This document shows, one piece after another, positions 48,066-53,230 of a stretch of DNA of 64,000 bases. Position numbers and translations under genes: made by a program. Positions within the stretch are counted from its first letter, which is position 1. Every line of letters starts with the position of its first letter. This DNA comes from Ancylobacter vacuolatus. GTDB lineage: Bacteria; Pseudomonadota; Alphaproteobacteria; Rhizobiales; Xanthobacteraceae. The notes under the pieces were generated by a model. The model saw nothing but the letters and a program-made list of their open reading frames with translations. It was not told where the DNA came from and did not search any database. The DNA lies in NCBI RefSeq assembly GCF_030813595.1, contig NZ_JAUSUH010000002.1:124001-188000 (forward strand), given 5' to 3'.

Positions 48066-49100
48066 TCAGGGTTTCACCAGGCCCAGCCGGATCAGGCTTT
48101 CCGCCGTGGCGAGGATCGCCTCCTGCGCCGATCGCGGCGACCAGCCAAGCACGCGCCTGGCTTTCTCGTTGGTGGCGCTACGGCGGATGCCGAGCCGGGG
48201 CACCGCCATCCGGGCCACCGGGAGGGCGAGCGCGGCAAGGCGCACCATCATATCCGGCAGCTGGAAGCGCGGCACACGCCGCGCCGCCGGGCCGAGCCCC
48301 ACGCGCAGCACCTTCGCCATCTCGTGCAGCGATACCGCCTCGCCCGCCGTGGCGAGGAAGCGCTCGCCCGCCGCCTCCGGCACCGTCATCGCGCTGAGAT
48401 GCAGATCGGCGACATCGCGCACATCGACAAGGCCGAGATAGATGCGCGGCGTCGCCGGCACGGCGCCGTCCAGCAGAGCCCGGACAAGGTCGAGCGAGGC
48501 CGACATGTCAGGCCCCAGCGCCGGGCCGAGCACCACCACCGGGTTGACGGTCGCCAGCTCCATGCCTGCGCCCTCGCCGGCGATGAAGTCCCACGCCGCC
48601 CGCTCCGCCAGCGTCTTGGAGCGCGTATAGGCGTCGACGTCAGCGTCGTCAGGGTCGGTCCAGTCGCGCTCGTCATAGGGCGTGGGGCGCGGCGCATGCC
48701 CATAGCCCACCGCCGCGAAGGAGGAGGTGACAACCACCCGCCGCACCCCGGCCGCCCGCGCCGCCTTCAGCACCCGCACCGTGCCCTCGCGCGCCACGGC
48801 GATCAGCGCGTCCTCATCGGCTGCCACCATTCCCGCCGGCACCGGCGAGGCGACATGCAGCGCGTAATCGCACCCCGCCATCGCGGCCGCCCAGCCGTCA
48901 TCGTCGAGCAGGTCGGCACGGTGGAAGCTCAGCGATGCCCCGGGTGAAGCCCCTCCCGCCGCCAGCCGGGCGCGCGCTTCGCCCTCGCGCGCCATGTCGC
49001 GCAGCGTGGCGCGCACCTCATGGCCCGCGCGCAATAGAGCGAGGACCACATAAGCGGCGATGAATCCCGAGCCGCCGGTGACGAGGACACGCGCCATCAC
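48066..49100 (-). CDS. NAD(P)-dependent epimerase/dehydratase family (extended SDR, dihydroflavonol-reductase-like)
   Basis: The 344-residue protein has the dinucleotide motif VLVTGGSGFIAAYVV at residues 5-19 and the catalytic YTRSK (YxxxK) motif, with the VTSSFAAVGYG segment carrying the catalytic Ser. It resembles bacterial dihydroflavonol-4-reductase-like reductases of the extended SDR group. It overlaps larB by 4 bases at its 5' end, so it is the last gene of the lar run. The substrate is unknown; it may act on the product of the LarA-type enzyme. Confidence 0.88.
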   Translation of the reverse strand: MMARVLVTGGSGFIAAYVVLALLRAGHEVRATLRDMAREGEARARLAAGGASPGASLSFHRADLLDDDGWAAAMAGCDYALHVASPVPAGMVAADEDALIAVAREGTVRVLKAARAAGVRRVVVTSSFAAVGYGHAPRPTPYDERDWTDPDDADVDAYTRSKTLAERAAWDFIAGEGAGMELATVNPVVVLGPALGPDMSASLDLVRALLDGAVPATPRIYLGLVDVRDVADLHLSAMTVPEAAGERFLATAGEAVSLHEMAKVLRVGLGPAARRVPRFQLPDMMVRLAALALPVARMAVPRLGIRRSATNEKARRVLGWSPRSAQEAILATAESLIRLGLVKP

Positions 49101-49762
49101 CGCTCCTGGTTCGCCGGCACAGCCGCGCCCAGCATTTTGAGCGCGGCGCAGGCCGCGCCGAAGCCATTGTCGATGTTTACCGTCACCACCCCGGGCGCGC
49201 AGCTCGCCAGCGCCGAGGTGAGCGCCGCCTTGCCGCCCTCCGCCACGCCATAGCCGACCGAGGTCGGCACGGCGATGACGGGCGCGCTCACCAGCCCGCC
49301 CAGCACGCTGAACAGCGCGCCCTCCATCCCCGCCACGGCGATCACCACCCGGCAGGCGCGGATTTCCTCGATGCGCTCCATCAGCCGCCAGAGCCCGGCC
49401 ACGCCGACATCGGCGACGAGGAGCGCCCCCTCCCCGTTAAAGGCGAGGGTCTGCACCGCCTCGCGCGCCACCGGCAGGTCGGAGGTGCCGGCCGCCACCA
49501 CCGCCACAGGCGTATCCGCCAGCGCCAGCTTCCCGCCGAGCACGGCAGTGCGCGCGAGCGGGTCATAATCGAGCCCGGCGCGGGCTCCCTCGTCCAGCGC
49601 CGCGAAGCCCGCCGGCTCCAGCCGCGTCAGCAAGAGCCGCGCGCCGCGCGCCTGGGCGGCCGCGAGAATCTCGGTGATCTGCGCCGGCGACTTGGCGCTG
49701 CACAGCACCGCCTCGGGCAGGCCGGTGCGCGCCGCGCGGCTCCAGTCGAAGGTGAAATCCAT
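49097..49762 (-). CDS. larB: Nickel pincer cofactor biosynthesis protein LarB
   Basis: The 221-residue protein has the PurE-like carboxylase domain: VVAAGTSDLPVAREAVQTLAFNG, DVGVAGLWRLMERIEE, VIAVAGMEGALFSVLGGLV and PVIAVPTSVGYGVAEGG. LarB carboxylates and hydrolyses nicotinic acid adenine dinucleotide to pyridine-3,5-biscarboxylic acid mononucleotide, the first step of the nickel-pincer cofactor. It follows larE after 3 bases. Confidence 0.94.
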   Translation of the reverse strand: MDFTFDWSRAARTGLPEAVLCSAKSPAQITEILAAAQARGARLLLTRLEPAGFAALDEGARAGLDYDPLARTAVLGGKLALADTPVAVVAAGTSDLPVAREAVQTLAFNGEGALLVADVGVAGLWRLMERIEEIRACRVVIAVAGMEGALFSVLGGLVSAPVIAVPTSVGYGVAEGGKAALTSALASCAPGVVTVNIDNGFGAACAALKMLGAAVPANQER

Positions 49763-49765
49763 GGC

Positions 49766-50572
49766 TCAGGCCCCGATCCGCTCGCCGCCGACGAACATCG
49801 CGCCCCGGCGATAGGCGCGGCTGCCGGCATAGACGCGGCCGGCCTCGCCGCACAGCCCCGCCATCAGCGCGTCCACCGCGCCCGCCTGCTCCATCGCCTC
49901 CTCGCCCAGTTCCACCGCCACCCCCTGATGGGTGATCCGGCAGCGCAGCGTGCCGCCGCCGATCAGCGCGGAAAGCCGCCGCTCGGCCACTTCCACAAAG
50001 GCGAGGTCACCGGCCGCGATAGCGATGCCGGTCTCGACCCGGCTGGCGAGACAGGGCTGCGCCGGCAGCTCGGCCACCGCGCCAAGGCCGAGCGTGCGGG
50101 CGAGCGCGCGCACATCGGCCTTGGTCATGTCGGCTTCGATGAGCGGATGCACCACCCGCCGCTCGGCGGCGGCGATCAGGCCCGGCCGGTAGTCGCCGAG
50201 ATCGTCGAGATTGGCGCCTGACGCGATCGGCCATTCGGTCAGGCCGGCGATGCGGTCATAGAGATTGGTCTTGCAGAAATAGCAGCGGTCCACCGGGTTG
50301 TCGCGGTAGCGCGGATCGTCGAACTCGCCGGTGCCGGTGACGGTCAGATCCCAGCCCTGCGCCGCCGCCAGCTGTCGCACCCGCGCCGTCGGCTCCGCCG
50401 GCACGGCCGGGGAAACGGCATGGATCACGCGGAGCCGCACGCCATGGGAGTGGGCGAAGCTGGCGAGGGTGAGCGAATCCACCCCGCCGCTCACCGCCAC
50501 CGCCAGCGCGGGGAAGCGATCGAGCACCCGCGCCAGACGCATGACGGCGGGCATCGCCTGGGGATCACTCAT
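49766..50572 (-). CDS. larE: ATP-dependent sacrificial/iron-sulfur sulfurtransferase LarE
   Basis: The 268-residue enzyme has the PP-loop SGGVDS (28-33) and the LarE text DRCYFCKTNLYD and LPAQPCLASR. It turns pyridine biscarboxylate mononucleotide into the bis-thiocarboxylate. Three cysteines (97, 100, 174) are placed as in LarE enzymes that hold a [4Fe-4S] cluster and use exogenous sulfide, in contrast to the single-Cys sacrificial type. The ATG at 50572 gives a normal length; it overlaps larC by 8 bases. Confidence 0.93.
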   Translation of the reverse strand: MSDPQAMPAVMRLARVLDRFPALAVAVSGGVDSLTLASFAHSHGVRLRVIHAVSPAVPAEPTARVRQLAAAQGWDLTVTGTGEFDDPRYRDNPVDRCYFCKTNLYDRIAGLTEWPIASGANLDDLGDYRPGLIAAAERRVVHPLIEADMTKADVRALARTLGLGAVAELPAQPCLASRVETGIAIAAGDLAFVEVAERRLSALIGGGTLRCRITHQGVAVELGEEAMEQAGAVDALMAGLCGEAGRVYAGSRAYRRGAMFVGGERIGA

Positions 50573-51926
50573 CGCCGCATTCCGCCCGTTGCTTCTGCGC
50601 CCGCCGCGCGGCCAGCGTGTCGCCGGTGAGCGCATCGCTCTCCGCCTTCACCGTTTCGCCGCCGGGGCGCGCCGCGCGCTTCACCGCCACCCCCGCACTC
50701 TCGCCCGCCACGCGCTTCAGGGTCAGCCGCCGCTCCTCGCGCAGCCGCAGCCCCAGCGTCGAAGTCTGGGCGAAGCAGGCCTGCGCCACGGCGTCCGCGC
50801 TCTCCGGCCGCGCCAGCAGCCGCAGCGCCACCACCGGCCGCCCCTTCTTGCCGAATCGATGACCGAGGCTGACATCGAGCACGCCCGGCTCGGCCCGCAG
50901 ACGCTCGGCGGCGGTGCCGATCTCCTCGCCGGTCATGTCGTCGATCTCGCATTCGAGGACCGCGACCACATCACCGCTCAGCGCGTCCTCTTCCGCCGGC
51001 GCCTCCTCGAACACCAGCGCCCGCAGCACATTGGGCATGCCGGGCAGGCTGCGCGTGCCCGCCCCGGTGCCGGAGGCCACCAGCCGCCCGCGCATGGGGC
51101 GGCCGGGCCGCGCCAGATGCTTGAGGATCGCCGCGCCGGTCGGGGTCACGCGCTCGCCGGCAATGCCATCGTCGCGCCAGTCGAACCCTTTGAGGAGGGC
51201 GGCGGTGGCCGGCGCGGGAACGGGGAGCGGCCCGTGCTGCGTCTTCACCAGCCCGCCGCCGAGCGGCAGGGGGGAAACGGTCCACTCCGTGCCCTCCAGC
51301 GCGGCGGCAAGGCTGCCGGCGGCGACCACGTCGAGCAGCGAATCCCAGTCGGCGATTTCGTGGAAATGCACCTCGTCCACCGGCACGCCATGGATGGCGG
51401 CTTCCGCCTCGGCGAGAAGGGCGAGAATGGCGCAGGCATGGTACGCCGTGCCCGCACGAAGCGGCGCCGCCGCGATCCGCGCCCGCATGTCGCGATAGGA
51501 GCCGGCGCCGTGGGAATGGGCGTTCCCATGCGCGTGCGCCGCGTGGTCGTGCGCGTGTTCACGCACTCCCTCGCCCTCGTCACAACGCCCCTCATCCCCG
51601 GGCTCGACCCGGGGACCCAGCGCTTCCCCTAGAACCGTGGCCGAAGCCTGGGTGGCTGGGTCAAGCCCGGCCATGAGGGCGGAAGGAGGATGAGTGTTGT
51701 GGGTGTGAGAATGGGAAAGGGCGTGGGCGCCCTCCAGCCCGAAGCGCCGCACGGCGATGGCGCCGCTCAGCCCCTGCGCGAGAAAGGGCGCTCCCGCCCC
51801 TTCCGGCAGCACGGCGCGCGCCTCGGCCATCACCTGCAGGGCGAGGTCGGGCAAGGCATCCAGCAGCGCCGCCACGAACATGTCGCCAGCGACGCCGCCC
51901 ACCGCGTCGAGATGGATGCGCCTCAC
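50565..51926 (-). CDS. larC: Nickel insertion protein LarC, with an inserted repeat and His-rich linker
   Basis: The 453-residue protein begins with RRIHLDAVGGVAGDMFVAAL, typical of LarC (COG1641), and continues with HFHEIADWDSLLDVVAA, TPTGAAILKHL, ASGTGAGTRSLPGMPNVLRAL and the C-terminal ECEIDDMTGEEIGTA. LarC inserts nickel into the dithiocarboxylate mononucleotide using CTP. The GTG start at 51926 overlaps the larA stop by 4 bases. Residues about 84-112 come from an in-frame palindromic repeat (51591-51677); on both sides lie His-rich stretches (HSHTHNTH and EHAHDHAAHAHGNAHSHG) that may bind nickel. Confidence 0.93.
   Translation of the reverse strand: MRRIHLDAVGGVAGDMFVAALLDALPDLALQVMAEARAVLPEGAGAPFLAQGLSGAIAVRRFGLEGAHALSHSHTHNTHPPSALMAGLDPATQASATVLGEALGPRVEPGDEGRCDEGEGVREHAHDHAAHAHGNAHSHGAGSYRDMRARIAAAPLRAGTAYHACAILALLAEAEAAIHGVPVDEVHFHEIADWDSLLDVVAAGSLAAALEGTEWTVSPLPLGGGLVKTQHGPLPVPAPATAALLKGFDWRDDGIAGERVTPTGAAILKHLARPGRPMRGRLVASGTGAGTRSLPGMPNVLRALVFEEAPAEEDALSGDVVAVLECEIDDMTGEEIGTAAERLRAEPGVLDVSLGHRFGKKGRPVVALRLLARPESADAVAQACFAQTSTLGLRLREERRLTLKRVAGESAGVAVKRAARPGGETVKAESDALTGDTLAARRAQKQRAECGDE
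51591..51677 (-). repeat. Palindromic element inserted in frame in larC
   Basis: The element is bounded by CTCAT and ATGAG and is 87 bases long, a multiple of three. Each arm folds into its own hairpin: CCCCGGG-CTCGA-CCCGGGG (51596-51614) and, on the other arm, GGCTGGG-TCAAG-CCCGGCC with one mismatch. The two arms are also inverted copies of each other, and their differences are mostly compensatory. Similar sequences occur between genes of many Hyphomicrobiales. Translated, it gives a linker reading MAGLDPATQ ... LGPRVEPGDEG. Confidence 0.8.
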
Positions 51927-53230
51927 GCCGCCGCCTGCCGGTCGCGGCACACCGGGATCACATAGGGTCCCTCGGGAATGATGGCGAGCGCGTTGTCGCC
52001 GGAACGCTGCAGGCTCGCCGCGATCGCCTCATTGATATCGGTCACGATCTCCACCGCGGTGATGCGGCGTTCCTCATCGGTCAGCCCCGTGGTGTGGAGC
52101 TGGATGCGCCCCACCCGCATGGGCTTCAGCTGCATCTCGGTCTGCCATTCATCCACGTCGGCCAGCGTCTTGGCGGTCAGCGTGGCGAGGAACCGGTCCG
52201 GCCCCAGCTCCACCAGCCGCGCCTGCGCCGCGCGGAACTCCTCGCTGCCAAAACCTTCCGAACATTCCGAGGCGATGATCAGCGTGCCGCCGGGCTCCAA
52301 AATGTCGAGCGGCGTCACCATGCCCTTCACCGTCTGGTAATAGGTCTTGTCCAATGGATAGCCGGCTGAAGATGTCACCACCGTGTGGTAGCGGCGCGGC
52401 GCCTCGATGACGGTCGAGCCCTCAACGAACGCCACGGCGGCGAGATGGCTGGCGATGATCTCGCCGAAGGCGACGAAGACCAGGTCGCGCGCCTCGTCCA
52501 GCACCGTGTTCAGCGCATAGACATCGCCCAGCTTGCGCACGATCTCCAATTGCTCCTCATGCAGCGGGTTGCCGACGAGGTTGCACTGCACCGCGAGCGG
52601 GTCTTCCATGAAGCGGGCGGAATGGAAGGTGCGGATGGTCTGGTGCCCGGCGACACCAGGCGCCACCACTTTGCGCCCGCCCGACCAGCCAGCCATGAAA
52701 TGCGGCTCCACCAGCCCGGTGGCGATGCGCAGTTCTGCCTCAACGAAGCGCCGGTCGATAAAAACAGGCGTGCCGCGCGTCAGCGTAGCCCCGAGATCGA
52801 CATGGGCGGCCTCGTCGCGGGCGAAATGGTTTTCCACCCGCACATTCTCCAGCACCCAGGGGTCGCCGACGAGTTCCGCCAGCTCCTCGCCCTCATTCGG
52901 CCGGTGCAGCCCCGTCGCGACCAGCACGGTGATGGCCTCGGCGGCAATGCCGGCGGCGATCAGCGTTTCGATCATCGGCCGCAGGAAAAGCCGGTTCGGC
53001 ACCGGGCGGGTAATGTCGCAGATGAGGATGCAGGCGCTCTTGCGGCCCGTGGCGAGTTCCGCGAGCGGCGCCGAGTCGACGGGATGATCGAAGGCATGGC
53101 GGATGGCCGCCGCATTGTCCGGCAGCTTGGGCAGCGCCGCCTTGCGCAGCACGGTCGGCTTTGCCCCCGGCGGCAAGGTGAGGTGCAGCGCGCCGCGACC
53201 GAAGGCGAGTTCGAGACCCGTGTGAGACAT
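51923..53230 (-). CDS. larA: LarA-family nickel-pincer-dependent racemase/epimerase
   Basis: The 435-residue protein has the lactate-racemase-type fold. The residues that bind the nickel pincer nucleotide in Lactobacillus LarA (His108, His174, Lys184, His200) match His109, His177, Lys187 and His203 here, with the same spacing (ATGLHRPNEG; EPHFMAGWSGGRKVVAPG; RTFHSARF). CDITRPVPNR is also conserved. The substrate may be lactate or another 2-hydroxy acid; several LarA homologues act on other substrates. It heads the run larA, larC, larE, larB, SDR on the minus strand, with overlaps between the genes. Confidence 0.9.
   Translation of the reverse strand: MSHTGLELAFGRGALHLTLPPGAKPTVLRKAALPKLPDNAAAIRHAFDHPVDSAPLAELATGRKSACILICDITRPVPNRLFLRPMIETLIAAGIAAEAITVLVATGLHRPNEGEELAELVGDPWVLENVRVENHFARDEAAHVDLGATLTRGTPVFIDRRFVEAELRIATGLVEPHFMAGWSGGRKVVAPGVAGHQTIRTFHSARFMEDPLAVQCNLVGNPLHEEQLEIVRKLGDVYALNTVLDEARDLVFVAFGEIIASHLAAVAFVEGSTVIEAPRRYHTVVTSSAGYPLDKTYYQTVKGMVTPLDILEPGGTLIIASECSEGFGSEEFRAAQARLVELGPDRFLATLTAKTLADVDEWQTEMQLKPMRVGRIQLHTTGLTDEERRITAVEIVTDINEAIAASLQRSGDNALAIIPEGPYVIPVCRDRQAAA

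Follow-up and report, generated by a model that had tools for sequence, protein, structure and literature searches.

Palindromic repeats that are translated inside working genes are best known from Rickettsia, where reduced genomes make weak selection a ready excuse for their presence; the Rickettsia palindromic elements were reportedly described by Ogata and colleagues in 2000. The 'S. novella' named below is presumably Starkeya novella, which we take to be close to Ancylobacter. Among described systems, the nearest to the locus reported here are the CGTC REPs, in particular CGTC-3 and CGTC-4 with their 9-bp stem and 5-base loop, which the main text of Di Nocera, De Gregorio and Rocco (2013; PMC3733652) defines by a CGTC tag at one end, CCTC and TGTC variants being permitted, a stem of 8-9 bp starting with a complementary A-T and a loop of 4-5 bases. 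According to the same main text, some units lie within ORFs and add 20-30 residues, double insertions and other intragenic REPs occur, different REPs are found at about the same recB site in two Xanthomonas species, 'S. novella' is listed among the REP-rich species, and RPE-4 and RPE-6 of Rickettsia are placed in the CGTC superfamily. REPINs and BIMEs with RAYT, made of GTAG REPs, likewise have two hairpin units in inverted orientation, separated by a spacer that varies.

The window analysed here is a 64,000-nucleotide stretch of the Ancylobacter vacuolatus genome (G000; NZ_JAUSUH010000002.1, positions 124,001 to 188,000). From the ORF list and profile searches, larC, encoding the nickel pincer cofactor nickel-insertion protein, was located at 50565..51950 on the minus strand; its product scored 285.3 bits against PF01969, also exceeded the cut-offs of TIGR00299 and NF052512, and matched the LarC entry 12bi of the PDB with an E value of 6.7e-37. 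The gene sits between an upstream LarA-family (nickel-dependent racemase) gene (51923..53230; NF033504, 336.6 bits, under the cut-off of 460) and larE (49766..50635; TIGR00268, 247.5 bits, exceeding the cut-off) with larB (49097..49762; NF033503, 248.1 bits, exceeding the cut-off), all on the minus strand. The LarC1 and LarC2 matches share a single uninterrupted frame at 50565-51950, unlike Lactobacillus plantarum larC, which is frameshifted.

Within larC, 87 bases (51591..51677, minus strand) are read in frame as the 29 residues LMAGLDPATQASATVLGEALGPRVEPGDE, that is, residues 91-119 of the translation starting at 51947. They are flanked by two His-rich stretches evident in sequence and translation, HALSHSHTHNTH on the N-terminal side (51690..51725, minus strand) and HAHDHAAHAHGNAHSH on the C-terminal side (51510..51557, minus strand), and themselves hold no His and no Cys. 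Sequence, fold and unit comparison delimit a whole CGTC/CCTC-tagged REP dimer, tag to tag, at 51590..51678, with CCTC at 51590-51593 and the inverted GAGG at 51675-51678, and thus one base longer per side than the 51591-51677 of the first-pass annotation. Unit 1, with a CC-type stem (51592..51620, plus strand; model R1, 47.8 bits, E 2.1e-14), has a 9-bp stem, the 5-base loop CTCGA and a CCA tail, its outermost pair being A.C instead of A-T; unit 2, with a GG-type stem (51648..51676, minus strand; 40.5 bits, E 9.5e-12), has the loop CTTGA, a CCA tail and two of nine pairs mismatched, the outermost again A.C. Between them, unit comparison leaves a 27-base spacer (51621..51647) whose sole similarity is to the spacers of larC orthologues. 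The remaining seven of the nine window matches to the unit model at E<=1 reached at most 15.3 bits, and Rfam gave no match at E<=1 within 51000-52500. The 87 bases fold at -54.4 kcal/mol against -35.82 for shuffled sequences (sd 3.65, z -5.09, 0/200 as stable); two folds are possible, a hairpin per unit or one long stem spanning both, and the minimum-energy fold is the long stem. The fold, the unit model and the intact ORF bear out the first-pass annotation, which had seen a two-armed palindromic element of 87 bases lying in frame in larC and adding about 29 residues between the His-rich stretches.

Set against the CGTC REPs of the main text of PMC3733652, the Ancylobacter units share the CGTC/CCTC tag, the 9-bp stem, the 5-base loop and the CCA tail, and the repeats share head-to-head dimers of unlike units, a mostly intergenic location and no associated transposase. 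The larC units themselves have the tag, the loop and the CCA tail, form a dimer of a many-copy family and go without a RAYT; the family stem is of 9 bp, and at its A-T start both larC units carry the A.C pair given above, the GG-type unit having one further mismatch. Since the larC block fits the CGTC/CCTC-tagged REPs of alphaproteobacteria as given in that main text, it is an in-frame CGTC REP dimer of a kind already known, in a gene that is newly named: DNA polymerase I is named there as a host, an example matched by the PolA dimers of Ancylobacter, whereas larC, cobN and glcE are not. The Ancylobacter case also differs from that main text in that the insert is traced through 16 orthologues, and in its spacers, which are mostly private in dispersed dimers whereas the rule of thumb given there is that the spacers of head-to-head dimers are conserved.

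BLAST of the larC element against its own genome gave 55 matches, in which some places are counted once per strand. A covariance model of 29 positions, derived from 24 units and applied with at most about 150 candidates scored per genome, returned 135 unit hits at E<0.01 in the own genome, at 132 places in 82 clusters, and 111 unit hits in A. polymorphus (G009), with 39 and 44 head-to-head dimers respectively. In an alignment of 119 matches (101 distinct), 92.7% of stem cells are paired against 81.0% in shuffles, the covariation score is 0.250 against 0.068 (0/500 shuffles as high), and double-changed cells number 86 against a shuffle mean of 32.7; this alignment was fitted to the model and leans towards pairing, and sliding the partners by 1-3 columns gives a score of at most 0.093. 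Because stem cells pair more often than in shuffles, and at two stem positions C-G and G-C replace one another with both partners changed together (in 36 and 38 sequences), the hairpin is a true property of the repeat family.

Dimers are composed of unlike units. Identical stem types within a dimer were found in 1/32 cases in the own genome (shuffle mean 8.2, P 0.0002) and in 1/38 in A. polymorphus (shuffle mean 12.3, 0/10000 shuffles as low), once 7/39 and 6/44 dimers respectively had been left out for a unit not 29 bases long. This rule is real, yet already known as heterodimers in the main text of PMC3733652. Of the full-length units, 112/115 in the own genome and 99/101 in A. polymorphus have G or C as second base of the tag, and a C at the outermost stem pair accompanies the CCTC tag in 23/29 own-genome units. 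Comparing base 1 (the second tag base) with base 30 (the base after the CCA tail), G-C is seen in 70/115 and C-G in 24/115 own-genome units, and C-G in 93/101 units of A. polymorphus; this coupling may reflect pairing of tag with tail or, given the near uniformity of C-G in the latter, mere subfamily linkage. In the own genome, six alternating units also form an array only 480 bases long (G000:C3:71351-71830).

Copies inside genes were then separated from intergenic ones by a coding test that asks for one open frame through the cluster and a codon signal over threshold in up to 300 bases on each side, with a codon model trained on long ORFs of the window and loci, whose five seed genes include larC and its neighbours. 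As control, 877/900 positions within homology-supported genes and 100/2700 antisense frames pass. In the own genome, larC is the sole cluster of 82 to pass, the other 81 lacking coding signal on both sides, in line with the proposal that the element is dispersed and normally intergenic, for which a whole-genome count of coding against non-coding copies had been suggested. In A. polymorphus, 4/52 clusters pass, in polA, glcE, cobN and larC (lengths 84, 87, 87 and 87), the census covering 52 of 53 clusters with one weak single unit left out. Units at most 400 bases apart (own genome) or 200 bases apart (A. polymorphus) were joined and each cluster tested as a whole; as 6/82 own-genome clusters are longer than 110 bases and 3/82 have no frame open throughout, a coding unit inside a joined cluster could escape the census.

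None of 40 further long open frames over units in relatives was over threshold on both sides; they were hand-picked, 20 from each of two peptide searches, among the matches listed, and therefore do not amount to a full census of the genus. The nearest of them, L416, with signals of 4.0 and 6.6, resembles an antisense frame. In A. polymorphus, each of the four coding copies gives LMAGLDPATQ...LGPRVKPGDEG or a variant of it, and the leading unit is of one type throughout. Among 70 dimers tested, 22 are 3n long; two frames are open in these with equal frequency (38 and 38 reads), so that four of four in the same frame is weak evidence; loop 2 of CobN in G014, G019 and G022 reads the repeat in another frame. 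The idea of a single favoured reading frame was consequently dropped.

The larC insert and the Rickettsia palindromic elements are both palindromic repeats in frame in working genes, a likeness already drawn in the first-pass annotation and apt in view of the place of RPE-4 and RPE-6 in the CGTC superfamily (main text of PMC3733652), the link running through the superfamily description and not through RPE sequence. Unlike in Rickettsia, the genomes concerned are of 4-6 Mb and coding clusters are few, just one of 82 and four of 52. Ancylobacter thus offers translated repeats in genomes of that size, with gain, halving and decay in one protein traceable through orthologues.

LarC was present in 16 of the 61 genomes searched, all 16 belonging to the genus Ancylobacter. 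The dimer is found in four of these LarCs (G000, G002, G009 and G020, in the last twice) and a single unit in three (G024, G013 and G016), the other unit of G024 carrying an in-frame loss of 12 bases; the other nine hold no unit, which agrees with the absence of the block expected from an alignment of related larC genes. Among public LarCs (80 loci, 19 of them without a readable ORF), 57 of the 61 readable ORFs are without the peptide signature and all four carriers are of the Ancylobacter clade; conservation of the block in distant LarCs, which would have told against a mobile repeat, was thus not seen. On the LarC tree, just 4/13 inner branches of which are well supported, the label 'none' needs two changes, such as a single gain together with a loss in G028 (shuffled mean 5.5, 1/500 as low). 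Since up to seven species carry the dimer or a unit, the insertion is old enough to be common to several species and therefore not recent, contrary to what had first been supposed. The empty larC, glcE and polA sites are too diverged to show insertion ends or a target duplication of the kind that flanks a MITE, and for larC these are unreadable because the empty linkers are too variable.

The larC block is in all likelihood a head-to-head CGTC/CCTC REP dimer that was inserted in the LarC linker, tolerated, inherited and is now decaying. By a transposition-like insertion, in an ancestor common to several species of Ancylobacter, one REP dimer would have entered the His-rich linker that joins the N-terminal domain of LarC to its main body and is under little constraint. 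Because its net length is a multiple of three and its frame is free of stops, LarC stayed whole, and would have gained about 29 disordered residues, presumably without harm. Afterwards the insert may have been inherited, duplicated or re-inserted once, shortened in three species to a single unit and allowed to drift, with one original insertion and then one loss as the probable course.

The distribution could also have come about otherwise than by one inherited insertion, if homologous recombination moved larC linkers from species to species or local duplication enlarged the block. The occupants of larC and cobN do not neatly follow the polA tree and the divergence of the insert is under the synonymous divergence of the core, which speaks for this reading; the same units, however, are found at dozens of unrelated sites, so the larC block came from the dispersed family at least once, and exchange may add to the insertion and not replace it. 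As a full account, exchange or local growth is improbable.

Across the four orthologous dimers, pN/pS is 0.094/0.063 for the arms and 0.153/0.157 for the spacer, compared with 0.089/0.283 in the LarC core, a ratio of about 1 or above in the insert versus 0.31 in the core. The insert peptide is therefore under no detectable amino-acid constraint. AlphaFold2, run with 52 aligned LarCs, gave 338/460 residues at pLDDT >=90 and values below 50 for residues 78-144, covering the entire insert, which is thus probably a disordered stretch of the LarC linker on this prediction.

Could larC instead retain the element for a role as nucleic acid, with an mRNA or DNA hairpin by which translation, antisense transcription or the decay of the mRNA is tuned? 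The very stable fold of the 87 bases would suit such a role, and among the four orthologues the arms differ least (31/360, against 25/162 in the spacer and 263/1032 at four-fold sites of the core), counts that come from six non-independent pairs with few changes; this low divergence may be due to chance, to slower change of the arms or to conversion by other copies. On the other side, none of the changed pairs is compensated in the four copies, one stem of the A. polymorphus copy has, on the strand as written, three pairs weakened to G.U, and 3/16 genomes have lost one unit while 9/16 lack both. Such a device is somewhat less probable again than linker exchange. The compensatory differences that the first-pass annotation had reported hold for the family, with its excess of double-changed cells, and do not hold for the larC copy; its suggestion that pairing is conserved within larC is not supported, given the unit lost in three genomes and the lack of compensatory change in the orthologues. 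Least probable of all, and very much so, is a peptide useful to LarC, such as a spacer or a ligand helping the His-rich linker to hold nickel, which would account for the position exactly between the His-rich stretches of a nickel-insertion protein but is at odds with the pN/pS of the insert, its lack of His and Cys, its predicted disorder and its absence or halving in 12/16 LarCs of the genus.

As to how the inserted REP dimers are moved, a search for Y1_Tnp (PF01797, RAYT-type), the sole transposase family searched, found it in 0/30 genomes of the genus and detected it in 5/14 named genomes as positive control. The larC dimer is in this respect, and by its CCTC instead of GTAG tag, unlike a REPIN with its RAYT, and a RAYT as mobiliser was rejected for the genus on the absence of PF01797. 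A survey of Y1-class transposases (PMC6006769) gives, in the text available, none or few per genome in alphaproteobacteria. Despite the lack of Y1_Tnp, the number of CGTC units spans 0 to at least about 150 across the 30 genus genomes, a range that makes Ancylobacter a good system for finding the mobiliser of CGTC REPs, the question left open in the main text of PMC3733652.

Between dispersed dimers, only 2/741 spacer pairs in the own genome and 7/946 in A. polymorphus reach the similarity mark, and all nine are neighbours in local arrays except for one weak own-genome pair (0.61). In the part of the genomes covered, G016, G009, G002, G024 and G013 each carry a dimer some 1290 bases ahead of the polA TPVDR codons, with arms close to one another and to the consensus and spacers ranging from alike to quite different. 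Since dispersed spacers are rarely similar and the polA-side dimers share their arms, the arms are kept alike across sites and the spacers are largely private. On the downstream side of the PolA TPVDR codons in G016, at a distance of about 1950-2620 bases, four successive dimers recur every 190-200 bases or so with nearly identical spacers, a local tandem expansion.

Host proteins other than LarC were identified by NCBIfam as CobN, DNA polymerase I and GlcE, the last at 263.1, just under its cut-off of 284. Loops of all three carry the CGTC repeat in frame, and unrelated palindromic families occupy the same positions in other species. The second of these families has the sequence of the intrastrand triplex motif TM/TMECO, CCCTCTCCCC..GGGGAGAGGG.GGGTGAGGG, searched with at most 4 substitutions; it is likewise dispersed, with 25 copies of its core pattern in the own genome, 0-105 across the 30 genus genomes and none for the reversed control. 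The third family, seen in the CobN loops, is a hairpin repeat.

For CobN, motifs were matched with at most 4, 1 and 5 substitutions for the second, third and CGTC families respectively, and the same expressions matched nothing in ten first-order Markov and ten codon-shuffled ORF sets. Loop 1 holds the CGTC repeat in 5 genomes, the TM family in 14 and the third family in 2, any of them in 19/28 rows; at loop 2 the TM family is seen in 5 genomes, the third family in 6 and the CGTC repeat in 4, at least one of them in 14/28 rows, where G013 and G012 are unaligned, G001, G004, G025 and G006 are apparently wrong-strand ORFs and sound rows number at most 24. A single protein match spans both loops in one frame in 16/30 genomes, and one TGA lies within the spanning frame, in G014 only. 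TM/TMECO is always intergenic in E. coli MG1655 according to the text available of PMC4666352, in contrast to the TM matches in frame in CobN loop 1 of 14 Ancylobacter genomes, and triplex motifs inside genes were not found stated in the accessible text of the open-licence literature.

In GlcE, 18 of 30 loops could be read, with a CGTC dimer in G009 and G016, a single unit in G028 and the TM family in G002, G014 and G021; in nine the loop is empty and 30 residues long. The PolA linker holds a CGTC dimer in G009, G016 and G014 and the TM family in G011; in linkers without the dimer, the unit model scores 23.1 bits (G023), 21.2 bits (G029) and otherwise at most 16.4 bits. The evidence is about evenly poised on the reading that a few loops, namely the larC linker, the two CobN loops and the PolA and GlcE linkers, are standing entry sites for unrelated palindromic repeats (CGTC REP dimers, TM motifs and the third hairpin family), which would be repeatedly translated, decay and be replaced, giving an ongoing source of new linker sequence with loop tolerance, and not a DNA target site, as the shared limit. 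In the accessible text of the open-licence literature there was no mention of a set of protein loops that three unrelated palindromic families occupy in frame throughout a genus. Occupation of the same loops by unrelated families makes it a testable claim that non-coding repeats feed protein linkers.

Two smaller observations concern these hosts. Before TPVDR, the PolA linker reads GLDP-(D/E)T in 13/30 species, resembling the first half of a translated CGTC unit, and this likeness is no more than suggestive of an old decayed unit. In the own genome, cobN (G000:C5:144324-147836) carries the TM motif in frame in both loops.
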